Shown one piece after another: positions 10,960 to 37,585 of a stretch of 64,000 nt of DNA (its first letter is position 1; every line of letters starts with the position of its first letter). Below the pieces are notes generated by a model. It did not search any database, was not told the DNA's origin, and saw only the letters and a list, made by a program, of their open reading frames with translations. The DNA comes from Coprinus comatus (Eukaryota; Basidiomycota; Agaricomycetes; Agaricales; Agaricaceae). The position numbers were made by a program, and so were the translations under genes. Location: positions 992,001-1,056,000 of the forward strand of contig JAWPGT010000006.1 of NCBI GenBank assembly GCA_034638255.1, given 5' to 3'.

Positions 10960-11052
10960 GCATCTATGTCAGCGCTTAGTGAGCATCTAACTCAGTGCTT
11001 AGTAGAGTGGCTATGTCAGTGCTTAGTGAGCAGCTATGTAAGTGCTTGGTAA
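10960..11052. repeat. tandem repeat, 23-bp unit, 4 copies
   Basis: Four imperfect units of GCATCTATGTCAGTGCTTAGTGA type follow one another with lengths 23, 24, 23 and 23. No coding frame is evident. Confidence 0.8.
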
Positions 11053-11069
11053 GCAGCTTAATTAGTAAT

Positions 11070-12175: not shown

Positions 12176-12179
12176 CTGC

Positions 12180-16657: not shown

Positions 16658-17053
16658 GTAACAGTCCAATGTAATGGATATTTAAGAAAAGCCTGTCTAA
16701 TACAAAACAGGGGTGCAAGTCTTTTATAGTAGATAACATATTTGGTAATGAGAGGGAATCATAACAAAGAAGATTTAACTAGGAGATAACAGGAGATCTG
16801 ATAATGGTATGATCACGTGAGAAGTATACGTTTCCACCACAGATAGGTCTCGGTCTCTCAGTCTTCAGACAAATTTCCCCCACATATATCCTTGTTTTTC
16901 CTTAGGAACTTGTGCATACATCCACTCTGGACCCACCTCCAGTTTCCAAAACTCATTCCAGTGGTGTTAAACTAGCACCTTATCATGACAACATCAATCG
17001 GATTCAATGTCTAGCGACTACACACCTTAGAACTCCTGCTTCTCCCACCTTTG
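16658..17053. other. spacer before copia-B, possible exon remnant
   Basis: No intact gene. A short plus-strand open stretch near 16925-17053 looks coding in composition (reads LDPPPVSKTHSSGVKLAPY) but is cut by the copia LTR and matches nothing I recognise. Confidence 0.4.
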
Positions 17054-17401
17054 TGTCAGGAATGCTCTAGACAGTCCCCAAGGTCAGTATTTATTGTTGG
17101 TTGAGGTTAGAAGAGTTGTGGTTGGATATTCTGTTTGGAGTTCTGGACTTGTAGATTGTTTCCGCTTTCTGTGACATCACAATGTCACGTCACACGTTAC
17201 TGAAGCGTCCTGCAGACACATGAAGACTCTCTAGTCTAATACAAGTGTCTGCAGGTGAGTAGTTAAGAAGTTATTGTATCTTTCTAGTCTAATACAAGTG
17301 TCTGCAGTGTTTGTGTTCTATCTCAGTCATTTCTCATTGGTCTCCTTCCATTCCTTCGTCATTGTGCTCGTCTCGTCGTCCTCTACGATCCTGCGCTTAC
17401 A
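17054..17401 (+). repeat. 5' LTR of copia-B
   Basis: 348 bp, TGTCAGGAATGC to GCGCTTACA. It differs from the 3' LTR at about ten positions, mostly transitions, plus a small indel. Related copies: 484-831 (reverse), 21324-21670 and the solo LTR at 36641-36988 (reverse). Confidence 0.95.
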
Positions 17402-17413
17402 GGTTATGGGCCC
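17402..17413 (+). other. primer-binding site of copia-B
   Basis: GGTTATGGGCCC directly follows the LTR and is complementary to the initiator tRNA-Met anticodon arm. This implies half-tRNA priming of minus-strand DNA synthesis, as in copia and Ty5. Confidence 0.78.
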
Positions 17414-17503
17414 CGTGCTTTAGGACTTCAAGAAACACGTTATTTATTCACATATTCCACTCTCTACTGCTCAACACTCTTTCTACTATTTTACAACGAC
17501 TTT

Positions 17504-19705: not shown

Positions 19706-21234
19706 ATTCCCCTGATTCACATTTGTGGAAAGAGGCGATGGACAAGGAGTACTCTACACTCGAGGCGAATGGTACTTGGGAACTTATTCCTTTACCCCGT
19801 GGTGAGAAAGCTATCAAGTCTGGTTGGGTTTACAAGATTAAGGACAATCCTGATGGTTCCATCGAACGGTATAAAGCTCGTCTTGTTGCTAAAGGTTACG
19901 CTCAACGTCCTGGATATGATTATACTGAAGTCTTTGCTCCAACATTCCGTCCTGCTTCCCTCCGCCTCATTGTCGCCCTTGCCGCCAAAGAAGGTTACAA
20001 GTTACGCTCTATCGACATCTCCTCCGCCTTTACTTATGGTGACTTGGAAGAAGAGATCTATATGCGTCAACCTGAAGGTTATCATTTTGGTGACTCAAAC
20101 ATGGTTTTTAGGCTTCGAAAATCGCTTTATGGACTCAAACAAGCAGCTCCACAATGGAACAAGAAACTTCACTCGGTCTTCATTTCACTTGGTTACATTC
20201 GACTCCAATCTGACAGCTCTATCTACATCTACTCTAAAGGTCCAGTCAAGGTTATTGTTCCCATTTTCATTGACGATATTACTCTCGCTTCGAAGGATGA
20301 CAAGGCCATGGACGATACAATCAAAGAGCTCTCTACTCACTTCAAACTTCGAGATCTCGGCTCTACCTCCTGGTTATTGGCTGTTAAGGTTGATCAAGAC
20401 CCCTCTCATCGCTCTATTTCGCTTTCACAAGAGAAATATGTCAAGGAACTCCTTGAACGCTTCCAGATGTCTGACTGTCGACCCGTGAAGACCCCTCTCA
20501 CTCCTGGACTCAATCTCTCCACTGTCACTGTCACTGAAGATGACAAACTCCTCATGAAAGATGTTCCCTACCTCAGCGCTGTTGGCGCTCTTCAATATCT
20601 GGCCACCATGACTCGTCCTGACATTGCCTTTGCTGTTTCTTACCTTGGGAGATTCAATCACAATCCTGGTCCTCAACATTGGGCTGCTGTCAAACATCTC
20701 TTCTGCTATCTCAAGGGCACAATGGACTATAAGCTGGTCTACAAAGGTGACATGGCTACTGAGGATCTCTTCATCACATATTCTGATGCTTCTCATGGTT
20801 CATGTCAAGAGACTGGAAGGGCTACGGGTGGTTATGTGACTTTGGTATGTGGTGCGGCTGTTGGTTGGTCTTCAAAACGTCAGAGTTTAGTCACTCTCTC
20901 CTCCACTGAAGCTGAGTACGTTGCAGCTGTTGAAGGCAGAAAGGAGATTATGTGGATGCGCAACATTCTATCTGAGTTCGGTTATTCCTTCACTTTCCCC
21001 TCCATTCTTAACATCGACAACCAATCTGCTATTACTGTTGCTAAGAATCCTGAACACCATGGTCGTATGAAGCAATTGGATTTGTGTTATTTCTGGCTCC
21101 GTGATGCTGTTCAAAACAAAGTCATTTCCCCTCTCTTTGTTCCTACCTCTGAACAACTGGCTGACATCTTCACCAAGGCTGTTGAACCAAAGGCAGTCTC
21201 TCACTTTGTTCCTCTTCTTGGACTTTCATCATAA
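19510..21234 (+). CDS. copia-B polyprotein, reverse transcriptase-RNase H part
   Basis: 574-codon open frame. RT domain from WKEAMDKEYSTLEANGTW, with KARLVAKGYAQ, IDISSAFTYG (first catalytic Asp), the SLYGLKQA motif and FIDDITLA in place of the usual YVDD (both Asp kept). RNase H follows with TYSDASHGS, TLSSTEAEYVA and NIDNQSAI, then ADIFTKAV near the end. It overlaps the upstream frame by about 195 bases in the Gln/Asn-coding repeat and is in -1 relation to it. Since the Met at 19510 lies inside the linker, this is probably the continuation of one polyprotein after a frameshift mutation rather than a separate gene. Confidence 0.85.
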   Translation: MESSGKPQQQQQQPRFTSESEAEAEAEESDEDFAFLVSDEKNGFKEVEFAGNVSSGHPGSFKAAMNSPDSHLWKEAMDKEYSTLEANGTWELIPLPRGEKAIKSGWVYKIKDNPDGSIERYKARLVAKGYAQRPGYDYTEVFAPTFRPASLRLIVALAAKEGYKLRSIDISSAFTYGDLEEEIYMRQPEGYHFGDSNMVFRLRKSLYGLKQAAPQWNKKLHSVFISLGYIRLQSDSSIYIYSKGPVKVIVPIFIDDITLASKDDKAMDDTIKELSTHFKLRDLGSTSWLLAVKVDQDPSHRSISLSQEKYVKELLERFQMSDCRPVKTPLTPGLNLSTVTVTEDDKLLMKDVPYLSAVGALQYLATMTRPDIAFAVSYLGRFNHNPGPQHWAAVKHLFCYLKGTMDYKLVYKGDMATEDLFITYSDASHGSCQETGRATGGYVTLVCGAAVGWSSKRQSLVTLSSTEAEYVAAVEGRKEIMWMRNILSEFGYSFTFPSILNIDNQSAITVAKNPEHHGRMKQLDLCYFWLRDAVQNKVISPLFVPTSEQLADIFTKAVEPKAVSHFVPLLGLSS

Positions 21235-21310
21235 TTCCTTCTCTTCCTTTTCTTTTATCACTTCACTCTTTTCCTTTCCATTTATTTCCTTCCTTTGTCT
21301 GGACTGGCTA

Positions 21311-21323
21311 GATCAGGGGGGTA
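21311..21323 (+). other. polypurine tract of copia-B
   Basis: GATCAGGGGGGTA ends directly at the 3' LTR, the usual plus-strand priming position. Confidence 0.7.
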
Positions 21324-21670
21324 TGTCAGGAATGCTCTAGACAGTCCCCAAGGTCAGTACTTATTGTTGGTTGAGGTTAAAAGAGTTGTGGTTGGATATT
21401 CTGTTTGGAGTTTTGGACTTGTAGATTATTTCCGCTTTCTGTGACATCACAATGTCACGTCACACGTTACTGAAGCGTCCTGCAGACACATGAAGACTCT
21501 CTAGTCTAATACAAGTGTCTGCAGGTGAGTAATTAAGAAGTTATTGTATGTTCTAGTCTAATACAAGTGTCTGCAGTGTTTGTGTTCTATCTCAGTCATT
21601 TCTCATTGGTCTCCTTCCATTCCTTCGTCATTGTGCTCGTCTCGTTGTCCTCTACGATCCTGTGCTTACA
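21324..21670 (+). repeat. 3' LTR of copia-B
   Basis: 347 bp, TGTCAGGAATGC to TGTGCTTACA. Followed by GGTAC, the duplicated target inside the KDZ terminal repeat (the partner is at 832-836 on the reverse strand). Confidence 0.95.
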
Positions 21671-21845
21671 GGTACATATGTATGTTCCTTTCATTATACA
21701 TATGTATGTGCCTTTTATTGTACATATGTCTGTATATATATACCCATTATTATTATATGACACATTTTTTCATGATTAATGATGATTTTCTACACCTTTA
21801 GTTTTGTCATATGCAAAAAAAAAAAAAACATAAGTTGTAGTAGGA
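21671..21845 (+). repeat. left terminal inverted repeat of the KDZ element, inner part
   Basis: Begins GGTACATATGTATGTTCC and matches the reverse complement of about 36251-36425 through CATAAGTTGTAGTAG. It includes tandem ACATATGTATG-type motifs and a poly-A run. The outer part is at 832-914. GGTAC at its start is the copia-B target duplication. Confidence 0.85.
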
Positions 21846-21917
21846 TTCTTCTAAAGACTCAAGTTTTCTAGACAATATATAGTATATTTCTTTATTAGAA
21901 TGTCAAACTATTATATT

Positions 21918-24880
21918 TTACTTCAAAAGATTTAGTATTCTACTTCTGTTCCATAATGATAGAAAAACTGCAGTATATATAATTGCTCTTTCTTGCCCCA
22001 TATATCTAATCAATTTTCTAATTCTTGTAAGTCCTCCATTTCCACATTCTGCTGCACTAGAGTTGATTTTTCCTAATGATGGTTGGCTAGAAGAATATGT
22101 TTTAAGAAAATAGGCTGCACTACAAGATTTATGACCTGCAGAATGAAAATTATCAATGAGAAATAGGGTATCCATAAAAAAGTCTGGCTCTCTTGAATGA
22201 CAATAAGGTCCAAGCTGGCAAGCAAAATCATAAATAACATATTTAGAAGCTTTTGGCCATCTTGTAACCATTGCTGAAAATACATCATTTCTTCCTTCAC
22301 TTGAAGAAATGCAATGATATCCATAGCAAATAGAATGAGTGTACCATGCACACATAATTCCTCCAGTTAAGCCAGATTCTCCATAAGTGCTGTAATATTT
22401 ATTACATTTTCCACCTCTGTCTTTTGGCTCATTTCCAGCTTCATGTTTAAGACCAGGATATTGAGGTCTATAACAAATTTGGGGTAAACTATATTTACAT
22501 CCACTCTATAGAAATTTAGTAAAAAAAATAAGGTAGTTATAATATAAAAAATACCTTTTGCCATCCACCTTCAGTTTTTTCAATATTATCTATAATCTTG
22601 GGACAAGGATATTTAATTATCTTTTCCATCAATCCTTTACATCTTTTGTTCATCCAAGAACAAACCCCAAGAATAGAGTTATCCCAATATGGTTGTTGTT
22701 TTCTTTCATAGTTTAGAAGCCAAAATAAGGATGGAATACAACACAAATGATCAAAATTTGTTTTTTGGGTAGGATCATTGATAAAGTCTTCCAATAATAA
22801 CAATGCTGGTCAGTTAATAACTTGAAGAGCAGAGTCATTACTTCCTAACTATTCAATATGAGAATAGTATTGGTAACAGTTAATCAAGAATTGATAAAAT
22901 ACCTGGTAAAAAAATGAAACAACTTCTTTTGGACATTGATTATTATGTTTTGATATTGCACTTGTAGTGCAATATTGTTTAAAAAGTAAACCCAAAGATT
23001 GGTTTTCTTTATTAAGCATATCTTGAAGGATAGGGAGAGATTTTCAAGTCTTGTAATTAGTTTTTGAAGATTTTTGGTAATTGTGGTATGAGATTTATCC
23101 TCAGAAGAATCATTATCAGAAAGCAAGTTTTTGGAAGGAGGAGTAAGACATAAAGGTTCTGAAAATGTAGATCTTAATAGTTTTCTACAATCAGAATTTT
23201 CAATAAAAGCCTGGTTACGAATATATAAGCAATTTCGTATAGGAGCATTGGGATGAATAGAGGTTGGAGGATGGAGAGATTGTTGAAGATGTTTTTTGCT
23301 GAAGGCAAGTGTAACTCCATCCCAAATTATAGTCTCTGGAATATCTTTACATTGAGGACATTTCATATCTTCTTCTAATAAAAGAAGAGAAGCATATCCA
23401 AACCAAGCAGAACGAAAAGTCTTTTCATCCACAAAAGATAGAGAGCTTTGATATTTCTGATATCTTGAAGACACTACTTTTACCCAAGAGGTAAAAGGAG
23501 TTTCAGAGGTTGCATAGGAGATAGTATAGTCTTCAAGAAGGTCATGGGAGAATAAGGAGTGGTTGTTGAGATTAAAGATTCCATATTCCCTACAATCTGG
23601 TCCAATTGCTTGATAACGACTTTTAGAACAGCTTGGGCATTTTTGAAGTTGAATTCTTGTAGCGATTGATTTTGTAAGAGTATAGACAATACAATCTAAC
23701 TCATAGGTAGGATGTACTTTCATATATTCTTGTTCACAGGAACATTTGGAGAAATTGTTCAAGGAAAGAAGAGGTAGAAGGTTGGTAACAGGAGGTGCTT
23801 CAGAATATAGGGCAATATTGTCGGTAGGAATCCAGAATGATAAAAGAGGTAATATAGGTTGATATGAAATGGGTTTATTGTCTTTAATCCCCACAATAGG
23901 AATAGAAAGATTATCTAGAGATAAACCTTATTAATAAATCATAAAATGTTTAATAAATGTTTTCACCTCTATTATTAGGATCTTGAGATGCTGAAAATCC
24001 ATTTCCATTGAAATAGAGTATTGATCTTTGTATATGAGTACATTTGGTTCCAGGATCTTTGTTGCAACTCCAAGTTCCAAGACCATTATCAGGACCCTTA
24101 TAAGAAGTAATAGTGCAACCTTTAATAGCATTGGGATCCTTTTTTGATGATACTGAAAAAAGATTAAGAAATCCAAATTCAATCCTTTCTCATAGGAAAA
24201 TAATAACATCAGAGTCAATATCTAAAATATAACTTGAGTTATGATAAAATAACTTTAGAATAGAATTTAACCTTCAGGATCTTCAAACTTATTAGGATAT
24301 TGTAATAAAAATCTTGTGTGAACACAGTTATTGGTTGATATTCCTTGACCACAATAACAAACAGGTATAGGAGGGCTTGAAGAATAATCCATTTGTAAAT
24401 AAAACCATTGATCCTATTATAGGTTTAGAAATAGAATGTATTATTTAAGTATTAATACATACCTTTAGAATAGATGATTTTGCATCCCAACCTGGAACAA
24501 TGTATATATTTGATGTAAGTCGATGGAAAGGAATTGCCTTAGTTAAAACTCCATTGACAAATTCATCATAGGTATCTTGAGGAGTTGGTAGTCCAAATAT
24601 ATCATCTTGTATATATTGATCTGGTACTTCAGGCTCTGAAGATAGATTAAAGATAGGTATACCAGTTATTGTAAGATGATCAAAAGGGTTAGAAAGTTCT
24701 TGAGATGTGGATTTAAAAGAAATAGATTTTCTTCTTCTGTTGAACCCAGGTTTTTGATGACGTGGTTTTTTCTAAGGTGTTGAACTTGGACCAGATAGAG
24801 GATCATCTAGAGTAGTCAAAGAAGAAAATGGTTCTGGACCAGTAATAAAAGAGATGTAAAATCATTAGAGATTTGTCTTT
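21918..24880 (-). pseudogene. KDZ transposase with CxC5/CxC6 clusters, disrupted
   Basis: Read leftward from about 24880. The N-terminal segment contains PGFNRRRKSISF and PFHRLTSNIYIVPGW. A Cys/His segment (CYCGQG, CNKDPGTKCTHIQ) follows. The CxC5-like cluster is CPSCSKSRYQAIGPDC and the CxC6-like cluster CPQCKDIPETIIWDG (about 23370). The transposase core spans 22355-21918 with VIYDFACQLGPYC, FHSAGHKSC and SAAECGNGGL, the Asp, His/Cys and Glu motifs expected of this DDE family. Several GT..AG introns are visible. It is disrupted by TGA at 24190-24192 and 22810-22812, a TAG near 24770 and a 1-base shift near 23040. All three stops can be explained by C-to-T changes. A copy of the 3' part lies at 59464-60165. 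Confidence 0.82.
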
Positions 24881-24969
24881 GTCTTTTGCCTATAGAGGTA
24901 GGAATAGAGAATATAACATAATAGTAGATGGAGTATAAAGATAGTAATACAAATTACATAAGTTCAACC

Positions 24970-25605
24970 ATGCCTTCTTCCAGACAACGTTGTCCAACTC
25001 AAAAGATCCTTGATACTCCTATTGGTATTAAAAAGACCTGTTGTCCTCCTACATGTCATATATGCCCAAATAGACCACTTAAAAAGAACTATGGATGTAG
25101 TGGGAAAAAAAAGGGAAGGATTCTTACTTCACAGGTGAATTTTTACTTTTATAAATGAATAGGTCTAATATTTTAATAGAAAGTATTGGAAAAAGCATTA
25201 GTAGATGGACAAGAAGAGGAAGGAAGTCTGGAATTGAGAGATGATAGTCCAGAGGAGGATAATATCTCTCATCATGATTCTCCTACTCCTCAAACTGGAT
25301 TACAATCCTTATATACATATTCCAGTTCCAAGAACTCTGTTATCTAATAGAGAAATGAGAAACTGGTCTGAAACACCAGGAACTGAAGATTCAAGAGGCT
25401 CAACAGACTATGATGATATTGATAATGATTCAGATATTTCATCTGAGTCTTTCTTGATTAACATTATACAATCCGTACCAAGTTCTAGATCGAATTTAGA
25501 GTAAAGAATATTGGGAAAAAGGTTTTTGCTGCCCAAGATAAGTGTTTGTTAGAGAAATTGGAGGATAAAGAGATTGCAGTTGACAGGGTGAAAATCAAGT
25601 TGTAA
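24970..25605 (+). CDS. small Cys-rich protein of the KDZ element, function unknown
   Basis: Starts head-to-head with the KDZ transposase about 90 bases away. Exon 1 (24970-25134) encodes MPSSRQRCPTQKILDTP and the cluster CCPPTCHICPNRPL. It ends at a GT donor. Exon 2 starts at 25180 (KVLEKALVDGQEEEGSLEL) and is acidic. Its frame closes near 25345, while an acidic frame one base off (NWSETPGTEDSRGSTDYDD) stays open to 25504. A further Lys/Glu-rich stretch ends at 25605, so there is either another intron or a frameshift. I do not recognise the family. The CxxC pattern and position suggest a DNA- or zinc-binding accessory of the transposon. Confidence 0.5.
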
Positions 25606-25649
25606 AAACACCATAGAAAGCCAAAAGTATCTAGTAAAATAATGAGATA

Positions 25650-26734
25650 GGAGATAATAATTAAAAATAATGCTTATGGAGATACAAGTTGACAAACATC
25701 AGCCCTATCTTTTACCAAGAGAAAAGGACCACCACACATAATAAAAAACAAAAGGGCTGTTTCATCTTTCTGAATTATTTTAAGTAAAGATGGAGGGAAA
25801 ATGATTGGAAATAACTAAGAACATTATTAGTATATGAAAAAAGAAAAAGAGTAAAATCTATACCTCAGAAATTGGAATAGCCTCCATGTTGGGAGGAGGA
25901 TCAACCCAAATAAGCCTAGTATCAGGAGTAGAATGTGTATGGAGGAAAAAAATATAATGTTTGAATCCAAATAAATAGTTAGATAATTTTATTTCTGAAT
26001 ATTAAAATAGAAAATTACTTCTTTAGTTTGGTACAAAGCTTTACAATTCTCTTTTTGAGTTTCTTAACTGTAGTATCTGCAGATAGATCAATTTTAATTT
26101 CAATTAACTCCAAATAGCCATAAGGAGATCCTTTAGATCTTGGAAAATAGGACAGGAGATGTCCATAGGCCAAAGTAGAGACACATGATTTTGGGTTGAG
26201 AGATGAAAGTTGAAAAACAACAATGGCAGTATTATTGATATTAATAGTTGAGAACTTGGACCAAAATAAGATATTGGACTGGAGTGGAAAAGTTTGATTG
26301 AGATTTTTGAAAGGCTAAAAAATATTTGATTAGGTTTGGAATATCAATAATTAAAAATATGAACCTTATATGGAGTGTAGTCTCCGTTAGTCTTAATCCA
26401 ACATTGAGGGCAGGTAAACTTCTGCTTTAACTGTTGTCTTTCCAAGTTGGGAAGACAAACATCTCTACAGATTGCACCATCACAAGTATCACAAAAGATA
26501 AGATCTCCACCATTCATACAAAGAGAACAATACTAGATAAACATGTAAGTTAAATGAAAACAATAAAGAAACATATTATACAATATGGTCATTTGTAGAA
26601 GTTGTGGTCTGATGGCTTGAAGTAGTAGTAGGACCATCAACTTCCATAGAATCATCTTCTTCGAGAGAAGAAAGATCACCATCAAAGAGATCAATACTGT
26701 TGAGAGAGAGTTTAGAACATTTTTGAGGAGGCAT
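25650..26734 (-). CDS. PHD-finger protein carried by the KDZ element
   Basis: Exon 1 (26734-26582) encodes MPPQKCSKLSLNSIDLFDGD and an acidic/Thr-rich tail. After a 49-base GT..AG intron, exon 2 (26532-26365) keeps frame. It encodes a PHD-like zinc finger: YCSLCMNGGDLIFCDTC, then CRDVC and CPQCW. Exon 3 (from 26314) is open for about 95 codons with a Lys-rich end. A further in-frame exon near 25935-25863 (LIWVDPPPNMEAIPISE) and one near 25780 (ETALLFFIMCGGPFLLVKD) extend it; the 3' end is not certain. No stop was seen in exons 1-3. PHD fingers read histone tails or DNA context, so a chromatin role is likely. It converges on the Cys-rich gene. Confidence 0.68.
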
Positions 26735-26769
26735 GATGGAGGTACAAGTTAGAGAATGAAAGATATAAT

Positions 26770-27520
26770 CTTGAAGTATTTGAATCAAAGATCAATCAAT
26801 CAATCAATCAGTCAGTAGCTATAAAAGGAATCTTATATTAAATTTAACGAAGAGATGCTTAAAGAAGAAATATGATATTAAAATATATTTCATTATAATA
26901 CAATAGTTACTAGTGCGAAAATATGGCATTTAGGGTTAGGGTTAGGACGACATTTTAGCAAAAAATTATATACATACCAAATACAAGTCAAGAAGAAGAT
27001 TAAAAACACTTTCAATAAGAAGTTTGAGCTAACTTCATATTAAAAGTGAAAATGAAACATATACTACTTGTGGGTGCTCAAGCCACAAGGAATACATGTT
27101 CCAAAAGAAATGTATACTATGAAAAAAAATACTATATACAACTACACTACTTTACCTAAGACCTTGGAATGATGAATCAGTATTAGAAATAAAGAACAAG
27201 TAAAAGAAACATCACCTTAAAGCTTGTAAACCACAAACCACAATTTCGTGAACAACCTGAAATCCCAAATACATCAGTTGTCTAACAAATAAACAGTTGA
27301 ACTTACATTTCTACTCTAAATCTCTCCCACCCAAGAAAACATAGAAAACACTGATTAGAATAGAATAGATTAACAGACTGACACTCACCAAGTTTATCAA
27401 CACCCAACACCTATCCCAACAATCTATAAGACAAGCCAAAAGTTAGATAAGTAGAATTGAAATAGAAGTACTTACAAAAACGGATGTTGAACCATACTGA
27501 AGATGAAGACACAAGAAATC
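26770..27520. other. spacer with short telomere-like array
   Basis: A/T-rich with no sustained coding frame. Contains (CAAT)n near 26793-26812 and TTAGGGTTAGGGTTAGG at 26930-26946, about 2.8 units of the fungal telomere repeat, which may be chance or an old repair insertion. Confidence 0.6.
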
Positions 27521-27528
27521 ATCCCTCC

Positions 27529-27747
27529 TCTCTTGCAAACAAGAGAACCCTTGAAATACGAAGTCTCAAGGCACATTAGAGTGGACAATAGATAGACCCC
27601 CCCAGACCCAGAACAACCACCTACCTCCTCCAAAGAAGGGGTATCTTGGAAGTACAAAACCTCCAAGCACATAAATGGTTATTGAAAAGAGAACACACCA
27701 TCTCTTCCTGCAAACAGGAAGAACCCTGGAAGTACAAAACCTCCAGG
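27529..27747. repeat. three structured repeats, each with two hairpins whose stems covary
   Basis: Unit 1: stem with CAAA loop 27529-27546, second stem CCTTGA/TCAAGG 27549-27571. Unit 2: imperfect stem around CAAA 27624-27641, second stem CTTGGA/TCCAAG 27645-27667. Unit 3: perfect 8-bp stem with CAAA loop 27703-27722, second stem CCTGGA/TCCAGG 27725-27747. In every unit the second hairpin has an 11-base loop (AGTACAAAACC in units 2 and 3) and is followed by CACAT. Stem sequences differ between units but pairing is kept. On the reverse strand each unit can read MCL-E-x-x-YF, so a short peptide repeat is an alternative reading. Confidence 0.75.
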
Positions 27748-28660
27748 CACATTAGGATGGAACAGCATAAGAACAACAATATCAATGCCAGCTCTATGTT
27801 TCCGAAATGAGCGGCAAGTCAACATGTGTCCCTATGTAACGAAGACCTTTCAAAGAAAGGTAACACCAGTACCACACACAATCATGTTCATAGCTGGGGC
27901 CCTCAGCATGAATGAAGATTATGACACAGGGCTGCCTCTGGTGTGACATCGTCAAGGTAGAAGAATAAATGGGAATACTGAAATAAAAATACCAAGAATA
28001 GAAGTAACTTTACATTATAAATAGTACTCACCTTATTATAGCACATGCTATAAATACAAGCTGATCAACACAGACAATGACAATAAGGATACTGGTGATC
28101 ATGGATGACAACGATGGTCACCAAGATGAATGATGACAAGGCCAATAACATACGTTGATTGTAGACAATGACGAGGGAACCGGCTGTTCATAGACAATGA
28201 TGACGATGACGATGAGAGGATCAAAGATGACGACGGAATTGTAAAGCAGCAAGCAAGTGATTAATACATAAGCCAAGTCTCGAGAATGATGAAGCAGATG
28301 TTGAACAAGGGGGATACAGAGATGACAAAGGTGGGGGATGGTGGGGGGAAATAAGAAAGAACATTTTCGTGCTTGGGCTGGTATATATGGCCCCTGATCC
28401 TGAGGACCCTGGGTCTGATGCCATGTCACCAGGTCTTGTCAGACCATGTGAAACTGGGCCGATTACTAGATGGGCATTCACATCATGATTCAGCAGTTGA
28501 GCCATTGACATTCATACATGAGACCATGATGTAAAACATGTATTTTTAAGAGAAAAAAGAATATACAACAAAGAACAATGTACCTCTGTAATAACATATG
28601 TATCTACAACCTGATCCTGCAATAATACAAACCACAAAGGAGGCTTTTTAATGAAATCGA
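27748..28660. other. no gene recognised; GAT/GAC-rich stretch
   Basis: No reliable gene. From about 28070 to 28225 the plus strand is rich in GATGAC/GACAATGA-type words, a decayed simple repeat. Short open frames here look compositional. Confidence 0.5.
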
Positions 28661-29063
28661 CATTGTAAATAGATTAAGAATCAGGATCAGTGATGACATG
28701 TAAACGGGGAGGATCAATAATCATCCTTGACTTGTAAACAGTGGAATCAAGAATTGTTGACAATGTGTAAACATCTATGACATGTAAACAGGGGATTGAG
28801 AATGATTGATGACATGTAAACCACGAGGATCAAGAATCGTCAATGAAGCATAAACAGGGGGGATCGAGAATAGTCCAGGGCATGTAAACCAGGAGGATCA
28901 AGAATCGTCGATAACTTGTAAAGAATCGTCGACGACGTTTAAACAGGGGGGGGGTCGAGGTCGAGAATCATTGACGACTTGTAAATGGGGGATCGAGAAT
29001 CATTGACGATCTGTAAACGGGGATTGAAAATCGTCGGCGGCCTGTAAACCAGGAGGATTGAGA
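28661..29063. repeat. degenerate minisatellite, ~37-bp unit, about 10-11 copies
   Basis: Repeating pattern of (GA)CATGTAAACAGGGGG followed by GATCGAGAATCGTCGACGA-type sequence. Individual units are truncated or diverged. It sits between the structured repeats and the degraded RRM-protein gene. Confidence 0.75.
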
Positions 29064-29479
29064 TGGCCGATGAGTCACTGGCCAGGAGAGCACGACACCG
29101 TCACCCATTGTGTCTGGGTAAGCACTGTCTAGTTCCATGTAAGCAATGGCAAGAGGAGGAAGATAACTTACAGTGTATGACATTGGCTTCCAACCTCATT
29201 TTCCTAAGTCTGAGCAGCCCATTGACACCTTCTTGCTCTCAGTGTCACGGACTTGTTGTACCTGTGGACAACACTGTATAATAAGAAGTAGATCATTCCA
29301 GACCAGTGTAAAATAAAACTAAATAACGTACCGCAATGACAGAAAGCGTTGCTCAAGAAATGGGGAGAAGGACGGATGACCCAAAGGGTCTTCCTCCCAC
29401 ATTTGGCATCTTCTGGTCAAGCATTTCTCTCAACATCCAAGTCCAGGCATAGTCCCTTGGTTTGCTACTTATTTTTCTT

Positions 29480-30240
29480 GATGGTTTGTGATCCCTGTCA
29501 CTCTCAATAGTAGCTTCCTGCCACCTCGCTCTCTCCCGTTCTCGGACTTGTTCAACATCTTTCCGTTCTCATTCTCGTTCTCTTTCTCTCTCCCGTCACT
29601 CCCCTCCTCCTGCCGTCTGTCTGTGCTGCTCATCTGTACTCCGGGGTTCCTTCTTATCCTGGCTGTGTGATCCAGCAGGATCCAAATTCACATCACCTCC
29701 ACTCCTCTTTGGCATCCCTTTGAACGCGTTCTCCTCAGATTGTTCAGCTTCTGTCATGACGCCTGGGATTCCTGAAACTGGTCTGTACTCTCAAGTTCCT
29801 TATCCTGGCTGTGTGATCCAGCAGGATCCAAATTCATGTCCCTTCCCCTCGTCTTTGGCATCCCTTTGAACGTGTTCTGCTCAACCTCAGTGGTCGCAAG
29901 ATTGCCACCAAATTATAATGTGAGTAGCATATACATAAGTTCTTCTTGTGTTGTTTATTTATGACATTTAGGATTACTGTACTGCGGGTGCACATGCCAA
30001 ACTTGGGTCTCATCATCACACAGATCTGAGATGGTGATTATGGTAGAGAGGGTTTTTCAACAGACGCCAACGGTTGAAAGACAGAATCCAACCCTGTCAT
30101 CACAGAACTCGAGATTGTGAGTGCAGCTTGAAGTACATTGACAGAGGGGGGTTGTTCTGCTCCAGAAGATTCAATCTCAGATGAATTGTTGGGTCTAGCT
30201 TTGTTACTGGTGAGTTTTATTATGTATGAATTCAAGGGAT
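29480..30240 (+). pseudogene. decayed 5' region of the RRM-protein gene, with an internal duplication
   Basis: Segments 29651-29737 and 29802-29888 are direct duplicates (YPGCVIQQDPNS then SSLASL-stop in both). The second is preceded by MTPGIPETG, echoed at 30322 (TTPGMPENG). Both copies carry the same TGA after SLASL, so either the stop predates the duplication or both arose at the same CGA. No complete frame remains. Confidence 0.45.
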
Positions 30241-30269
30241 TATGCTTAATTGTAACCAGAAGGAGACAC

Positions 30270-31210
30270 TTCTAAGCCTCCTGCTGCTAGTCCTTTCCAC
30301 TCAGTTTCTGCCACGACTCCTGGGATGCCTGAAAATGGTGAGCAGATTGTTTACTCCCTATTACGTGTCCTCATGCCCATACCTGCTGACAAACACACCC
30401 TTAGACCAACTTACAATACAATCGACCAGGGTGGTAATGACTGGGTCACCAAACCCGATGTCAAGGGATGGGCTTCCACAAACAATCATGTATACGACCA
30501 GCGAAACACGACTGTCAAAGAGGGTATTTCTCAAATGGTGCAAAGTGGGGAGTCTATCACACGAGTTCAGGTACAGGCATCCAATTATGATGGTACGTTT
30601 TAAAAATGGCTATCATGGAAGAGCAAATTAACTCAAATTTATGCACCAGGTACTACAAAGGCATCTCACATCCCAACAGGGGATTATCATGGAGACAACC
30701 ATGACTTATGAGGTCAAACAAAGACAATCAAAGCAGTAATGCCATTACAGGCAGCCCTCTCCAAGACTGTGCAAATGCCCAGTGATCTCAATCCTACCAG
30801 CATTGACTTCAAGCCTCATATGGGGATCGAACTCAAGCCCCCATTGGTGGAATTTAAACTATCGGGCATTGAATTTAAACCACCCCAGATTGAGTTCACT
30901 CCCAATCTACCTTACCCCACCATGACTTGACTTCTTCCTCCAGAATGTGGTCAATCCCAGGACCTTCATACCATACCCAACCATCCTCCAAGCACATCAT
31001 TATTGCAACAGGACAGTAACCAATTTCAATCCAACCATGCAAACATCAACCCCTCCTACATTCCTCAATCTGTTATAAGTCCACCCAAACCACTGGCCTG
31101 TACCACCACCACCAAGGAAGACTTGTTCTCCATCTTCCCCGAACTCATCCCCAATGACAACACCATCATGGACGACACCATCTGACATATATTCCCCAGT
31201 GACATCACCA
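30270..31210 (+). pseudogene. low-complexity N-terminal part of a fungal RRM protein, with stops
   Basis: One frame can be followed from about 30270 (SKPPAASPFHSVSATTPGMP) to 31210. It contains VKEGISQMVQSGESI, MPLQAALSKTVQMPSDLNP, a hydrophobic/Lys repeat (IDFKPHMGIELKPPLVEFK) and SVISPPKPLACTTTTKEDL. It is interrupted by TAA near 30600 and by TGA near 30707, 30928, 31184 and 31223. The TGA codons fall where CGA fits. Spacing and frame suggest this and the RRM at 31684-32133 come from one gene, but ~470 bases of AT-rich, promoter-like sequence intervene. Confidence 0.5.
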
Positions 31211-31683
31211 TGACATTGCTATGACCTAACGCCGAACTAAGTATGAGACTCCACTTATGCTTAGAAGTCTACATTTCCCCAGCTCCAGTATTAGTTATCT
31301 GTTTCATCATTTTACTCCTGTTGACTAATCTTTCATTGTATATGGAGTAAATAGTCCCCAACCCCAATGTCTCACCTACTCCTGTTGACAGTTCTAGCAT
31401 TGTATATGGAGTAGATTATAAAGTGATGATGAGTAGTAAGGATATAATTAGTTAGTAGCTATTATTAGGTACATCCCTAGAATAGTATAAATACTCAATG
31501 TATTAGACAATTAAAGCCTTAAGCTTTAATCTCTTCTGTTGTATCCCTTATACATCTCTGTCTCCATACCTCTCAGTCACTAGGTTGAAAGGCCTTGAGA
31601 TTGCAGCAGAGTGTTTATTGAACGCACATTCCTACATGACTGCACCTAGTGTTTAAGTTCCAGGGTGTTCAGCTTAATGGTTC

Positions 31684-32133
31684 ATGGTCATAACACAATC
31701 AAATAGCACAACTTGTCCTGACAACACTGTCTATCTGGAGAAGCTTCAACCCCATACCGACAGTAGTCAAGCTACATACACATCAACTACTGACTACCAG
31801 GCTTCCAAGGATCATTCCCAACATAACAAAGGATCACAATATCTGGATGACTCACAGAAAACTCCCAATGTGTACATTAATGGATTACCACTGCACTTCC
31901 CTGAGGGTCAGCTCTTTGCTCTAGCTGCCCCATTTGGAGAAGTAAAGAGTGTTCAGACATTCACACACCATGTAAGGGATAGTGAGAGTGGATATGGCTT
32001 TGTTCTGTTAGTCTGAACAATTCTTAAAGTTATATTATGCTAACTGTTTTATAGGTTTGAGACTATCGACACTGCTGAAAGATGTATAGTCACACTTAGG
32101 AAGTACTGCAATCTCCATCTGACTTTTTCCAAG
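31684..32133 (+). pseudogene. RRM domain gene fragment
   Basis: Exon 31684-32006 encodes a Ser/Thr/Gln-rich lead then an RNA-recognition motif. RNP2 is NVYINGLPLHF and RNP1 is SGYGFVLF, completed across a GT..AG intron (32007-32054). Exon 2 (32055-32133, ETIDTAERCIVTLRKY) ends at a GT donor. The splice sites are intact and join in frame. No downstream exon is recognisable, so the protein is truncated after its first RRM. RRMs bind single-stranded RNA. The surrounding KDZ genes suggest this is a captured piece of a host gene. Confidence 0.68.
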
Positions 32134-32730
32134 GTGAGAACCCTGATCCATTTTTCTGTTACTGATCAGTTAAATCATTGTTTGGGCTACACTGTAACAG
32201 AGGAGTTCATTATATGAGCTCATGTAGAAGCATGTTGTTGACACTCTGTTGTATTATTTTTAAGTGTGCTCAAATATATTGATTTCATCAGATCACTTCA
32301 CAAAATCATCTTCATATAGCTGGTGTAGATGGCATACCTGGATTTTACCATCTCATAGAAGGTATTGTCAAAGAATTCTTGGTGACCATCATCTTAGTTA
32401 TATGTTATTATTATTTTGGTGGTAAGCCTTATATTAATTCTTACAAATATATACATATTTAATCCATTTTCTTAGGGGTGTGATGTAGATGCATATTTCT
32501 TGTTTCCAATTGGAGCAAGTAACCTCATGGCTTTTCCCTGCTTTGTTATTGTTATGGTATGTAATAATGCTACACATGTATACCACATGGTGTTTCAGCT
32601 TTTTAATATAAGTTCTTCTTACCCTTTCTTGGCATTCATATAAGAATGGATGGTAAGATCCTACTACTTGATCCCTCCTTTCTACTATTGGACAACACAC
32701 TCTTTTTTTAAGTTATTATTCCTTACTCTA
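32134..32730. other. spacer between the RRM fragment and the TET/JBP gene
   Basis: A/T-rich with no sustained frame. It probably contains the promoter of the TET/JBP gene, but no motif stands out. Confidence 0.5.
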
Positions 32731-34057
32731 ATGACTATTCCTGAGAAAAAAGCAAGGAAATGTCAACGGGGCAGGGAAAGAAAGAAGACCACTCCAAAAC
32801 CTACCTCCTTAGAACAGCTTTCTATATCAATCCATCAAAGAACTCTGTATCAAACAACAACTCATAGGTTGGTTTTTTCTATTCTTTTTTTCTAACTAAT
32901 ATATAACTAATAATACTATAGTACCTTATATGATCCTATTACAGGAAGTACTCGAAGATTGGTTCCACTGGATGAACTTCAAAGAAGAAATTCTGCAAGG
33001 GCTATTGTAGCTGCCTTAAAAAACCAAAGTATGTTTTAAATTTCATTAATTTACTTTATTAATGTAAGATACTAGTAACTCTTGATATTGATATCCAAAT
33101 GCTCACCAAACCTTCAAAAATCACTACTCTTTTCAATAATATGAACTTGGGATATATTGATACTCCTGTAGTTATTACCAATACCAATGTTATCTTCTAA
33201 TCCTTTATCTACCTCAAGTTCTTGTAAAGGAATATCAGGTAGGTATTTGTCATTTATATTTTTTCTATTCCTCATGTTTTTTAGGATCAGCTGGTTAATG
33301 CTGCTAAACTGGTAGAGCCTTTATTTGAAATAAAAGATAATGGTTCTTGGAGAATGGAATCTACCAATTTTGTTTCTAAAGTCAATCAAACAATTGAACC
33401 TGGTGTCTTAACACTTTGTCCTGGATGGTATGAGATTGGAAAAGCGGTATGTTTCTTTTTTACTCTTATAATATTTTGATTAATGATGTACTTTAGTATT
33501 CTAAAGAAGCAATCATGAAACCTTCTATGTCAATTTTGAAGAACTCAGCTCTAATTTCTATCTGGTTACAAGAAACACAAAGTGTTTTTGGAGTTTTGGG
33601 TGATGTCTTGGCCTATATTCATCCTACTCAATACAATTCTGGAATGGGATATATCAAAAGATTGGAGAGTCCTAAACCTTCAGAACAAGATGAACAGGAT
33701 GGGATTAATATTTCTCCATTGACTAAGGAATGGGGAAATAAGTGGAAGTCTTCTTTTTCTGCTATTTCTATCATTTCTAATCACATATCTCCCCCTCATT
33801 TTGACTTTAATGGTAACTATGCTTGGTTTGACCAAGTAGTTTCTGTTGGAAGTTATAAACAAGCTGAAATTACATTTCCTGAATTAAGTGCTACCTTTTC
33901 TTATCCTCCAGGTACTGTTATTCAGTTTTGTGGAAATCTTTTGAAACATTCTGTTGGTGATTGGGACAAAGGTGATAGGATTTGTTATGCATTTTTCATA
34001 AAGAAGGTTCTCTTTGATAAGATGAATATTTCTTTTCCTACTTGGGCTCATGTTTGA
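32731..34057 (+). CDS. TET/JBP-family 2-oxoglutarate/Fe(II) dioxygenase
   Basis: Exons: 32731-32867 (basic, MTIPEKKARKC), 32922-33028 (TLYDPITGSTRRLVPLDEL), one or more uncertain exons in 33029-33284, 33285-33446 (QLVNAAKLVEPLFE..CPGWYEIGKA) and 33497-34057. The last exon holds the catalytic double-stranded beta-helix. NSALISIWLQETQ precedes the iron site: HxD in SPPHFDFNG, then distal His in LLKHSVGDW and the 2-oxoglutarate-binding Arg in GDRICYAFF. Family members oxidise 5-methylcytosine (some fungal ones also N6-methyladenine) in nuclear DNA. All clear exons join in frame without stops. Only the linker exon is doubtful, and it shows a stop in each frame unless spliced at an internal GT. 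Lies between the RRM fragment and the 514-residue gene, all on the plus strand. Confidence 0.8.
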
Positions 34058-34175
34058 TTAGGTATTTTGTTTGTACTTCATAATAATTCCCTTATATAAA
34101 CCAACTTACCATGTCACCATTCTTCTTTCTTTCTCATTCCTACTATTGTTTTTCACAACTTCAATTCTCTCAACT

Positions 34176-36085
34176 ATGGATTCTTCTAATACTTTACCTT
34201 ATTCCTTGGAGAAAGAACTCAGTAGTCAACTCACCAAACATCTTGCTACTCTTAACAAGATAAAGAGTAAGACTAAAGGACAACCTGATCTTGGTATGTT
34301 TATGTTATTTTATTTTATTTTCTGTTTATTTAAATCAGTCTCTAGCTGCTATTAAAGTTCTCAAGAATGAAATTATTCAAATAAAAGGAAAGCTAAAGAC
34401 TATATGTTGTAAAATTACCAAAAGTAAGAAGCAACTAGATACTGGAGTATCTAGAGGAAATGGTATGTTATTTTTACATATATTTGTTATTCATCTTATA
34501 TACTTTGGTTATAGAACTAGAGGTAGAATTTCCTCAACCTCTTCCAATTATTTCTCAATCTACTTCAACTATTTCCCCACATTCTCATAACAAGAAAAAC
34601 AAAACTACAATAGTTACATCTGAATCTACTTCCTCAGCTATTGCTCAATCTGGTTCTATACTTTCTCAATCTTCCTCAACTGGTCTTGAATCTGCTTCTG
34701 CTCTTTTTCAGCCTTCTTCTGCTCTTGCTCAATCTATGTCAACTATTCTCCATTGTTCTCCTAAGAAGAATAGAGCTGAAGTAGTTATAACTACATCACC
34801 TATGAAATCTCAACATTCTCCTAACAAACAACTGTCTTCCCCTCTTACTTCTCTATTATCATCATCATCATCTTCAAATAATGGTATCTTCTATTTCTAC
34901 ATTCTTTATCACAACAATTAACCTACAATCATAGAAGATTCTGGATTAGATCAGGTCACCTCTGATAATATCACAAATCAAGGTATCATATTTTATTTTG
35001 TAATCATTTCATAAAAACAGCTTTAATAACCTATTAATATTAAGATACTAGTGATGTTGTACCAACTTCTAGTAATCAAGAGCTTCTCTCTGGTAGCATA
35101 GATAAAGAGAGCTATGGTAAGTCATTTATTTATTGTTTAAAAATTATATCTCATCCTAGTTTAGTTCTTTCCAAAAAGCGACCTCTAGATATTGATGATA
35201 GCTCAAGTGATGATGAAGATACACAATTACCTGGTTTGTTATTCATTCTATTATTCTATTATTGTATCATTGACAAATATCTATAGAGCTCCAACCAACT
35301 AATATTCATTCTGATAGGGTTGTTAAGAAACAAAAGGTTATTCAGGTAGAAGGTGGTGATAAAAGTTCCAAAACAAAAGTCAAAAAACCAAGAGAGGCTG
35401 AACTAAAGGTCCTTACTGAGGAGGAACTGGCTGAATACAAAGGTATGTAAATTTATAATCATAATTTTGTCTATATTGATATACTATAGAAAATGACTTG
35501 GCTATACTTCATATGTGGCTAACTACTAAAGGCCCAAGGAAACCTAGGATTGAAGCTGAGGTCAAGAACCAAATACGCATGCATTGTTCTTATTTACCTG
35601 AAGCCTATCTTATAACAGAAGCTCTTACGGAGAAGCTTCTTACCAACAATTTGGGAAATATCTATTGTCTTCATCATTCTAAAAAGGATAAGAGTACGAA
35701 CCATATTGATGGGGACAAGACAGTTCATGATATTGTTATTCATGGTGTTGGGGCAAGTAGAGCTGGAAGAGGGAAAAAAAGCGTTACTTTTCAGGAGGAT
35801 GGGCTTTATCATTGTGGTTGTCCCTGTGACTCTGTTATTGCAGGAGCTATATTTTGGAAGTTGTGGAAGGTTCCTGTGGTTGTAAATGGAGAGGAGATTA
35901 CTGAAGGATTTAACAGTCTTCCTTTAAATCCTAGAAACACATTATTTGTGATCCAAAATCTTGAAGAGAATTTTGGTGTCAAGTGGACTGACTTCTATCG
36001 CAATACTGTCTATCCTGAAGATGATGAATGGGACAAGTGGTTTCTCAAGAAAATGGTTATGAGGTTTCAAAAGAGATATAGGTAG
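34176..36085 (+). CDS. 514-residue protein of unknown function, 8 exons, KDZ cargo
   Basis: Exons 34176-34293, 34346-34462, 34515-34883, 34935-34982, 35045-35116, 35165-35233, 35287-35442 and 35490-36085 total 1545 bases, exactly 515 codons with the stop. All seven introns (47-62 bases) are GT..AG and phase 1, and no stop interrupts. The N-terminus is helical/charged (SLEKELSSQLTKHLATLNKI). Residues ~80-200 are Ser/Thr/Gln-rich, with KKRPLDIDDSSSDDEDT and Lys-rich nuclear-localisation-like patches following. The last ~195 residues (ENDLAILHMWLTTKGPRKP, HCGCPCDSVIAGAIFW, FYRNTVYPEDDEWDKW) look like a folded domain I do not recognise. Downstream by 118 bases of the TET/JBP stop. Confidence 0.85.
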
Positions 36086-36205
36086 TTATTTGGTGAAGAT
36101 ATGGTTATAAACTAATTGTAGTAATCTATAGCCTTTGAATATATGATATGGTGGTAATAACAATAATAGAAATGAAAACTGAGAAAAAGTCTACTAAAAG
36201 TACAA

Positions 36206-36233
36206 GTTCTTTAGTAGAATTCTACTAAAGAAC
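36206..36233. repeat. perfect 28-bp palindrome near the KDZ right end
   Basis: Fourteen-base arms with no spacer, half-site GTTCTTTAGTAGAA. A related half follows at 36240-36258. The same iterated palindrome occurs three times at about 60259-60340 in the second copy of this family. A transposase-binding iteron is a reasonable inference. Confidence 0.8.
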
Positions 36234-36250
36234 CCATATGTTTAGTAGGA

Positions 36251-36502
36251 TTCTACTACAACTTATGTTTTTTTTTTTGCATATGACAAAACTAAAAGTG
36301 TAGAAAATCATCATTAATCATGAAAAAATGTGTCATATAATAATAATGGGTATATACATACAGACATATGTACAATAAAAGGCACATACACATGTATAAT
36401 GAAAGGAACATACGTATGTACCCAATTAAAATAACTAGTGGTACCCTTTTTTTTACAACTAGTGGTACCTATCTGTTACCATTTTAATCAATCCCCTGCC
36501 CC
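36251..36502 (-). repeat. right terminal inverted repeat of the KDZ element
   Basis: Reverse complement matches 832-895 (outer) and 21676-21845 (inner) with scattered substitutions. Contains a run of about 12 T, tandem CATATGTAC-type motifs and the doubled ACTAGTGGTACC. Ends at the duplicated target CCTCCATCCA (36503-36512). Confidence 0.82.
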
Positions 36503-37585
36503 CCTCCATCCATTCTAGGTACCAACAGGTGATCGGATCACTGTTGTACATTGCTATTGGCACACGTCCAGACATTTTGTTCGCTGTGACTAAGCTTAGT
36601 CAACATTCTCATAACCCTACAGAAGAACATTTACATAGAGTGTAAGCGCAGGATCGTAGAGGACGACGAGATGAGCACCATGACGAAGGAATGGAGGGAA
36701 ACCAATAAGAAATGACTGAGATAAAACACAAACACTGCAGACACTTGTATTAGACTAGAGTAATACAATAACTTCTTAACTACTCACCTGCAGACACTTG
36801 TATTAGACTAGAGAGTCTTCATGTGTCTGCAGGACGCTTCAGTAACGTGTGACGTGACATTGTGATGTCACAGAAAGCGGAAACAATCTACAAGTCCAGA
36901 ACTCCAAAGAGAATATCCAACCACAACTCTTCTAACCTCAACCAACAATAAGTACTGACCTTGGGGACTGTCTAGAGCATTCCTGACATAGAGCTCTCTA
37001 TATTTGCAGATACCTCTTAGTGACTCAGGAATACTGAATGATGCTTGATGGGTCTGGTAATGAGGGTTTCATTGCTTACAGTGATTTTGATTGGGCTAGT
37101 GATCCTTCTACTCGAAGATCCCAAACTGGTTATCTGTCCACTGTTGCATCCTGCCCAGTAGCCTGGGTTAGTCGATCACAGAAGACTATTGCATTATCAT
37201 CCACAGAGGCTGAGTACATGGCTATTTCAGATTGTAGTCGTCAGTCTATCTGGATCAGAAGCCTAATGACTGAACTTGGTTTACACAACAATGAACCAAT
37301 GGATATTTGTGGAGACAATATGGGCTCTCTCTTTATCACACAAAATCCTGCCATCGAAAAGAGATCAAAACACATAGACATTATTTTCCACTTCATTCGT
37401 CAAGTAATTGATGAAAAGAAGGTTCAGCTCTATTTTATCCCAGGCACTGAGAACCCTGTAGATCTTCTCACGAAGAATCTAGGATGTGTGAAGTTTGAAT
37501 ACTTCCGTGATAACTATTACAGGTTGGAGTTTTCTAATCCCACATATAGCACTGCCAAGTGCTCAAATAATATGTCCTCAACATA
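36503..37585 (+). pseudogene. copia-1 pol, 3' part (RT end and RNase H)
   Basis: Resumes the copia-1 RT exactly where 915 leaves off: SIHSRYQQVIGSLLYIAIGTRPD continues the SSIQ at the other side of the KDZ target. After the solo LTR (36641-36988) it reads RYLLVTQEY, a TGA where Arg fits (~37040), then RNase H: YSDFDWASDPSTRRSQTGYL, LSSTEAEYMA, GDNMGSL, ending HIDIIFHFIRQ and VDLLTKNLG. Opposite strand to the 5' half because of the later inversion. Confidence 0.85.
36641..36988 (-). mobile_element. solo LTR of the copia-A/B family, TSD TAGAG
   Basis: 348 bp, reverse orientation, TGTCAGGAATGC to GCGCTTACA on the reverse strand. Flanked by TAGAG at 36636-36640 and 36989-36993. It splits the copia-1 RT after HLHRV and postdates that element. 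Confidence 0.95.

Follow-up and report, generated by a model that had tools for sequence, protein, structure and literature searches.

What would a DNA transposon have to do with an oxygenase of the TET/JBP family, and with the gene that stands next to it? The question is raised by a stretch of 64,000 nucleotides from Coprinus comatus (the window), which contains a KDZ-type DNA transposon of 14.9 kb; a fuller copy measures 17.1 kb. Read from left to right, its genes encode a CxC4 transposase, a Cys-rich protein, a PHD-like protein, an RRM protein and a TET/JBP oxygenase, followed by an 8-exon gene, here called X. A preliminary description of the window had proposed a KDZ transposon with TET/JBP cargo, and this is supported by the CxC4 transposase, the Tet_JBP match and the presence of the termini around these genes in other copies. 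The gene set it gave also stands, the 8-exon gene being intact, except that the RRM gene had been missed. That TET/JBP genes travel in KDZ elements of mushrooms had been taken as established; it is already published (Kojima 2025, PMC12730594), and that part is therefore not new. New here are the pairing of X with an AG-type TET and the occurrence of X beside a PE-type oxygenase. The features are:

483–831, minus strand: 5' LTR of copia A', the inversion partner; A' extends past the left edge of the window
832–916, minus strand: outer left terminus, starting CAGGTAGCTGACGACCC at 916; 832–836 is also a copia duplication
917–924, minus strand: left target-site duplication CCTCCATC, displaced by the inversion
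17054–21670, plus strand: copia A in the left terminal repeat; LTRs at about 17054–17403 and 21324–21670
21671–21855, plus strand: inner part of the left terminal inverted repeat
21918–24800, minus strand: multi-exon transposase of KDZ type, CxC4 cysteine cluster included; ends approximate; frameshift at about 23035
24970–25435, plus strand: gene for a Cys-rich/coiled-coil protein, shortened by a deletion
25861–26734, minus strand: PHD-like zinc-finger protein gene
30256–32135, plus strand: gene for an RRM protein, split by an insertion; both ends approximate
32731–34057, plus strand: TET/JBP oxygenase, AG type, 5 exons, frameshift in exon 3
34176–36085, plus strand: gene X, 514 aa, intact; 8 exons at 34176–34293, 34346–34462, 34515–34883, 34935–34982, 35045–35116, 35165–35233, 35287–35442 and 35490–36085
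36177–36502, minus strand: right terminal repeat, ending ...ATCCCCTGCCCC; inner limit modelled on copy C99
36503–36510, plus strand: right target-site duplication CCTCCATC
36641–36990, minus strand: copia A-type solo LTR nested in copia B, with a TAGAG duplication; outside the element

Borders of the element and its copies

Copia A was inserted within the left terminal repeat of the element, and an inversion between copia A and A' then carried the outer 85 bp of that repeat, together with the left flank, to 832–924. The inversion is recognised by the swapped flanking duplications: the 3' flank of A' equals the 5' flank of A (CTTTG), while the 5' flank of A' equals the 3' flank of A (GGTAC). 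Position 21671, initially taken as the left border, is a copia LTR junction and not an element terminus, and the inverted repeats 21322–21670 and 36641–36990 were rejected as terminal repeats of the element because both are copia LTRs. Long terminal inverted repeats are nevertheless real, the inner parts at 21671–21855 and 36241–36422 being 95% identical over 185 bp. In the 2.9-kb copy C99 the terminal repeats are 98% identical over 310 bp, and the outermost 17 bp are not alike between the two ends.

The target duplication, previously put at 8–10 bp, exists and is 8 bp long (CCTCCATC). A length of 10 bp was rejected since the exact pairs fit 8 bp and the additional CA belongs to the start of the element itself. 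The longer string CCTCCATCCA has two matches within the window, at 36503–36512 on the plus strand and 915–924 on the minus strand; shuffled controls gave a mean of 0.14 matches, with 2 of 100 shuffles reaching two. Among the genome copies, exact 8-bp duplications are common to seven flank pairs. When the flanks are joined with one 8-bp copy, the copia RT frame reads through the junction without a stop; further upstream, stops do occur. The restored RT frame named in the preliminary description is confirmed; the left border given there was wrong.

Further copies of the terminal repeats, to which the preliminary description had looked for confirmation, exist: 31 left and 23 right termini were counted genome-wide, some of them bracketing the same genes, and collinear copies are present on several contigs. 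Many copies are broken, and contigs often stop inside them. Copy C76 has the left half, the right half not being found in the 20 kb read there, and the left terminus of C13 was not found in the stretch fetched. The two duplications of copy C27a differ, the right one being the left one of copy C83b; it was rejected as a clean complete insertion on account of these unequal ends, which imply that assembly or recombination has produced chimeras among the copies.

Genes of the element and CpG decay

The transposase of the window copy matches the CxC4 model PF18717 at 146.8 bits (4.1e-43), one of 22 matches in the genome. The KDZ domain (PF18758, cut-off 26.6) scores 18.4 bits in the window copy and 23.1 bits (E 6.7e-5) on the joined exons of C27a, both below a cut-off that other KDZ loci in the same genome exceed by far. 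The PHD-like gene occurs at 13 places in the genome; its match to PF00628 likewise falls under the cut-off of 24, with 20.3 bits (5.9e-4) in the window and 16.1 bits for the C27a protein, which is longer. In the window copy the Cys gene lacks about 1.17 kb at 25435/25436, a segment kept in other copies, and about 0.6 kb of inserted sequence (31071–31695) splits the RRM gene. RRM_1 is matched at 3.7e-5 in the window copy and at 4.7e-10 on the joined C27a exons.

The oxygenase of the window copy has a Tet_JBP domain (44.6 bits, 1.2e-11, cut-off 34.9) and is matched by CcTet at 1.5e-15. The AG-type enzyme contains HxD, the distal His and the Arg, as well as the Gly and Asp of CcTet, and its catalytic residues do not vary between clades that share about 55% identity. 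Intact frames of 375 and 376 aa are found in copies C27b and C78, respectively. The window frame halts after 122 aa, where it differs from all eight copies that cover the site, and the frameshifts in the transposase and the Cys gene are seen in six of six comparisons with other copies. With these three genes frameshifted, the window copy of the element is dead.

Transitions are found at 31% of CpG positions in the window copy and at 1.6–28% in other copies. Because transitions accumulate at CpG, we infer that element copies are CpG-methylated by the host. The decay also suggests that a substrate for the oxygenase has existed, which keeps plausible the earlier idea of a cassette that edits its own methylation. 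The window TET is broken, however, and nothing shows action in cis; copies that carry TET also decay at CpG, so that no protection in cis is seen.

Gene X and the two oxygenase types beside it

The 8-exon gene, in the preliminary description just another unknown, proved to be the most informative part of the element. Its 514-aa protein matches no Pfam model even at E 10 and nothing in the PDB by sequence, and no homologue was detected in two protein searches whose reach is limited to relatives sharing 5-residue words. The single-sequence structure model is unusable (pLDDT 34). A set of Cys and His residues is invariant, and comparison of several copies points to purifying selection on X: dN/dS is 0.35–0.59 in pairs with the window copy, although one near-identical pair gives 1.3.

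X follows 17 of the 18 AG-type TET loci, and the remaining locus (C83) lies within an element piece; the fixed host locus without repeats that the preliminary description had considered as a counter-case was not encountered. Five further copies of X (at C13, C1, C126, C24 and C65, the PE-type loci assessed) follow a PE-type Tet-like oxygenase. Profile comparison, in which the AG profile is thin, found no sequence similarity between the two types, and they were rejected as detectable sequence relatives. The PE protein of C13 and 11 of 13 database relatives have HxE and the distal His; relative P0012 is without the Glu, and the alignment of P0013 misses the HxE site. As for the Arg that would bind 2-oxoglutarate, the one nearest the expected place varies among relatives. 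The nine named relatives are presumably all from mushrooms. Pfam Tet-like (PF20515) matches the PE protein at E 0.0092, under the cut-off. A TET fold is predicted for it by proxy of P0001, which is 39% identical to the C13 protein: the P0001 model has a pLDDT of 88.5, and its 26 best Foldseek rows are TET/CMD1 entries, with modest TM-scores.

Three PE loci (C30, C77 and C15) are without X, and four pieces of X are without an oxygenase. The 22 oxygenase–X pairs are copies of three lineages and not 22 independent events. The CxC4 transposase is listed in the expected place at 6 of 26 oxygenase loci, many of the others being at contig ends or not read that far. The transposase distances are too close to decide the order of the exchange between AG and PE enzymes.

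A possible role for the pair, and known systems

The presence of a very different oxygenase beside the same gene X suggests a pair working against silencing, and on the sequence evidence we think it probable that the two genes form an anti-silencing module at the right end of a KDZ-group transposon. The element is a copy of a multi-gene DNA transposon from a CxC4 branch of that group. Termini and flanks show its mobility and the 8-bp duplications; the cutting and joining would be done by its transposase on the long terminal repeats. The host would methylate the copies at CpG, and it is at CpG that they decay. The oxygenase would most likely oxidise methylcytosine, possibly also methyladenine, on element DNA, thereby relieving silencing. 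X would most likely serve the oxygenase, either guiding it as a zinc-dependent binder of DNA or chromatin or itself acting on the oxidised base, and the PHD-like protein may aid chromatin reading. More tentatively, X may be a dedicated partner of mobile TET-type oxygenases, the enzyme being exchangeable (AG for PE) while the partner is kept.

Alternatively, the oxygenase and X could be passively captured cargo, useless to the element and linked through common descent of a successful transposon. Many copies are indeed broken, and since the pairs belong to three related lineages, shared descent accounts for much of the pairing. Passive carriage is nevertheless unlikely, given that two oxygenase types unmatched by profile comparison hold the same place beside X, that several copies of X bear signs of purifying selection and that the catalytic residues stay invariant between the clades compared. 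It is less probable still that methylation is not simply removed by the pair and that element DNA is instead marked by a durable modified base, 5hmC or something derived from it, which the oxygenase would produce and X would read or process as an enzyme. Base hypermodification is raised for diverged TET types by Kojima 2025 (PMC12730594), and the invariant Cys/His set of X, in a protein with no detected relatives, would suit such a role; against it, neither Pfam nor PDB sequence matching detected an enzyme fold for X, a negative at the level of sequence, the structure model with its low pLDDT being uninformative.

That the genes serve the host, as a domesticated oxygenase–X pair lying in transposon remains by chance, appears very improbable: the copies vary and decay like transposons, and every AG-type TET locus found lies beside X or in an element piece, even though CcTet of Coprinopsis is active (itself likely from, or still in, a Kyakuja element according to PMC12730594). 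Least credible of all is that the unit owes its appearance to misassembly or to elements nested by chance. Contig ends within copies and the mismatched duplications of C27a are what such an origin might produce, but the window duplication with its restored RT frame, the exact duplications elsewhere and the collinear copies on several contigs speak against it.

If X is indeed such a dedicated partner, it would set where the oxygenase acts, or the fate of the oxidised base. For the problem of how a transposon-borne TET finds its target, and whether it lifts silencing, a gene that stays beside two very different TET-type enzymes is a concrete candidate, open to experiment, for a targeting or processing factor. 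The genome also offers copies ranging from fresh to CpG-decayed, with the oxygenase intact or broken, as ready-made material for methylation mapping.

A KDZ-group transposase with TET/JBP in Agaricomycetes (TET+ Kyakuja) was reportedly described by Iyer et al. 2014, who are also said to mention a divergent HMG protein. The terms PHD and HMG have no occurrence in the text of Kojima 2025 (PMC12730594). From the parts of that paper used here, and likewise from the open-licence literature searched, no X-like partner gene of TET was found; its section 4.2 states that transposons with the diverged TET types lack any extra gene product that would modify the base further. The AG type is there speculated to act without target specificity, its function not being experimentally validated. 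According to the same paper, TET+ Kyakuja resembles the window element in combining a KDZ-group transposase with an AG-type TET/JBP oxygenase bearing HxD in Agaricomycetes. It differs in its 7-bp duplications and CA..TG ends without terminal inverted repeats (two Laccaria families), whereas the present element has 8-bp duplications in seven exact pairs and long terminal inverted repeats, as in C99; its transposase, moreover, falls below the KDZ model cut-off. TET+ Zisupton/Dileera share with the window element the terminal inverted repeats and the 8-bp duplications, and Zisupton is reported to carry TET of the AG type as well as of the PE type (PMC12730594). CcTet of Coprinopsis cinerea (PDB 7VPN, 7W5P, 8JKK) aligns with the window TET over only about 160 residues, including HxD, Gly, Asp, the distal His and Arg. 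A parallel for a TET gene that keeps a conserved cargo gene as its neighbour, in constant order, is TET+ IS3EU with its alpha-kinase, as described in PMC12730594, in another transposon superfamily and with another partner gene.

Element borders and copies across the genome

A single DNA transposon copy occupies 21671-36502 of the window together with 832-916. Its ends, and the retrotransposon lying between its pieces, are as follows.

Right end: ...ATCCCCTGCCCC, then CCTCCATC at 36503-36510
Left end: CAGGTAGCTGACGACCC, inverted, running from 916 down to 832 and preceded by the same 8 bp as the right flank
17054-21670: copia A, separating the two pieces of the element's left repeat

Copia A is flanked by CTTTG at its 5' side and GGTAC at its 3' side, and copia A', a second member of the same family, by GGTAC and CTTTG respectively; this swap of duplications shows that a copia inserted in the left repeat and that a later A–A' inversion displaced the outer 85 bp together with the left host flank. 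The preliminary description had reported a reverse-transcriptase frame restored in the host retrotransposon, copia B, and this is borne out: when the host flanks are joined with a single CCTCCATC, the frame is open over the junction, with stops lying further upstream.

Searching the 35.7-Mb genome with up to three mismatches allowed yielded 31 matches to the left terminus (22 of the window type and nine of a variant with CTAACC, which occurs near other CxC4 transposases) and 23 to the right terminus; a reversed terminus pattern gave none. For the left terminus, flanks were read at 24 of the 31 ends, 23 of them distinct; for the right terminus, at 22 of the 23, with 21 distinct. Exact agreement over all 8 bp was seen for seven pairs, with an expectation of approximately 0.007. 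Five are the window copy, C99, C97/C5 (a single duplicated locus), C11 and C3; the other two span contigs, joining C83 to C27 and C68 to C2. The C25 flanks are identical at 7 of 8 bp, two ends on C24 agree after a one-base shift and the remaining read ends have no flank partner. The two duplications of copy C27a differ, indicating that this copy is chimeric, through recombination or assembly.

Short derivatives of 0.58-2.9 kb with both ends (C25, C97, C5, C11, C3 and C99) have the appearance of non-autonomous copies. In C99 the two ends share 98% identity across 310 bp, with the outermost 17 bp unlike each other. At C89:30177-31064 two right-type ends face outwards 0.9 kb apart with non-matching outer flanks, a possible right-right derivative. 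The window also holds a second, truncated copy with a terminal-repeat fragment (59466-61617), which shares 780 bp of its transposase end with 21838-22617 at 99.9% identity, and a palindromic stretch of approximately 400 bp (61881-62281; 88% self-complementary).

Gene content and the oxygenase–X pair

The fuller copy C27a measures 17,124 bp from end to end and encodes, from left to right, a transposase (-), a Cys-rich/coiled-coil protein (+), a PHD-like protein (-), an RRM protein (+; RRM_1 4.7e-10 on joined exons), a TET/JBP oxygenase (+) and X (+), an 8-exon gene. The order is the same in C24a and C65, which lack a full left end; in the remaining copies one half is visible, often reaching a contig end. 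For C76 this is the left half, and the 20 kb read there contain no right half. The transposase combines a strong CxC4 domain (4.1e-43) with a KDZ-like catalytic part scoring below the cut-off; a KDZ-domain search of the genome gave 86 matches, none of them a CxC4 transposase of these elements. One of the 86, a strong match of a different KDZ lineage, lies in the window at approximately 57320-57697 (+). Elsewhere, an RRM gene copy at C16:343457-343798 is 92% identical, with no TET or X match nearby, and is possibly the host source of the element's RRM gene, or a fragment.

The window oxygenase matches Tet_JBP (1.2e-11), and its closest solved relative is CcTet (1.5e-15), with which the HxD, Gly, Asp, distal His and Arg all align; the Gly and Asp of CcTet have been tied to its dual activity (PMC12730594). 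The window gene is frameshifted and ends after 122 residues, all eight covering copies differing at that site; C27b, C78 and C27a encode 375, 376 and 302 residues. In the window copy the transposase and Cys genes are also frameshifted when compared with 6/6 aligned copies, the Cys gene lacks approximately 1.17 kb and the RRM gene is split by an insertion of approximately 0.6 kb. X is intact.

Window X encodes 514 residues in eight exons (the C1 gene model again has eight, with 527 residues), and the conserved part is the last exon of approximately 200 residues. Across nine last exons, drawn from three clades and sharing 44-53% identity with that of the window, Cys63, His65, His66, His75, His88, Cys112 and Cys114 are invariant, which suggests metal binding. 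No relatives of X were found in Pfam or PDB, nor among 5.8 billion proteins, mushroom proteins included, which were queried with X of two clades by a method that requires shared 5-residue words. C27a/C78 give dN 0 and dS 0.050, and dN/dS is 0.25 for C78/C95; within the divergent clade, C128/C108 give 0.31 and comparison with C40 gives 0.11 (dS 1.6, near saturation). Pairs involving the decayed window copy give 0.35-0.59, and the near-identical C13/C1 pair gives 1.3, based on very few substitutions. The dS is 0 for two pairs and at least 1.7 for those across clades.

Merged genome matches comprise 26 X loci, 18 loci of the window (AG) type of oxygenase and eight of a very different Tet-like (PE) type. 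At 17 of the 18 AG loci (all but C83; gap 1.4-2.7 kb) and five of the eight PE loci (all but C30, C77 and C15; gap 1.7 kb), X is found downstream in the same orientation, no more than 5 kb away. Conversely, 22 of the 26 X loci have an oxygenase upstream; the remaining four comprise C83, one fragment on C39 and two on C2. Approximately 0.05 such adjacencies are expected by chance. As the pairs are copies of three lineages, the weight rests on these three rather than on 22 events. Six of the 26 oxygenase loci (AG: C6, C27, C65, C108 and C33; PE: C13) have a divergently oriented CxC4 transposase in the 25 kb upstream; none is listed for the others, partly because contigs end.

At the three PE loci lacking an X match the oxygenase is 42-80% identical, by part, to that of C13, making them a possible outgroup for dating when X joined. 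The PE-type element of C13 has a Cys-rich ORF at the place expected for the PHD/RRM genes (712455-713270, -); the portion compared with Pfam matched nothing there.

CpG decay and a proposed mechanism

The window copy and 12 others, mostly partial, were compared on window coordinates with the column majority base as reference; C13 was left out as too divergent. Transitions occur at 486 of 3586 CpG positions versus 277 of 33975 other C or G positions, a 16.6-fold difference, and in the window copy at 162 of 518 CpG positions (31%). They are somewhat elevated at CpA (1.3%, versus 0.7% at CpC and 0.4% at CpT).

CpG transitions in the other copies
C65 28%, C95 27%, C42 27%, C83a 22%
C24a 10%, C76 10%, C2 9%, C93 6%
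C27b 4%, C78 3%, C83b 3%, C27a 2%

C42 and C95 behave similarly and may be one insertion. The pattern is what CpG methylation with deamination would leave, so element DNA probably once carried a TET substrate. The same pattern also shows that TET cargo does not prevent the decay of old copies. Observed/expected CpG is 0.23 in the element, 0.57 in the C27a copy and 0.46 at 37601-59000; outside the element, 1501-17000 is equally CpG-poor (0.23), so the decay is not peculiar to the element.

In the mechanism we propose, the transposase would mobilise the element through its ends, as the termini and duplications support, and the host would methylate CpG in element copies, consistent with their decay. 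The oxygenase may then oxidise methylcytosine on element DNA and so weaken silencing, as Kojima 2025 (PMC12730594) proposed for TET-carrying transposons. X, retained next to either enzyme, would most likely be a guide for the oxygenase or a handler of its product.

Relation to known systems

TET genes within KDZ elements having defined ends have already been published (Kojima 2025, PMC12730594), so the main point of the preliminary description, a giant KDZ transposon carrying such an oxygenase, is not new. Neither an X partner nor two enzyme types beside X were found in the open-licence literature searched. The 8-bp duplications, long terminal inverted repeats, AG-type TET and CxC4 transposase scoring below the KDZ cut-off seen here do not match the published description of Kyakuja. 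The element may instead be Zisupton-like or form a separate branch.
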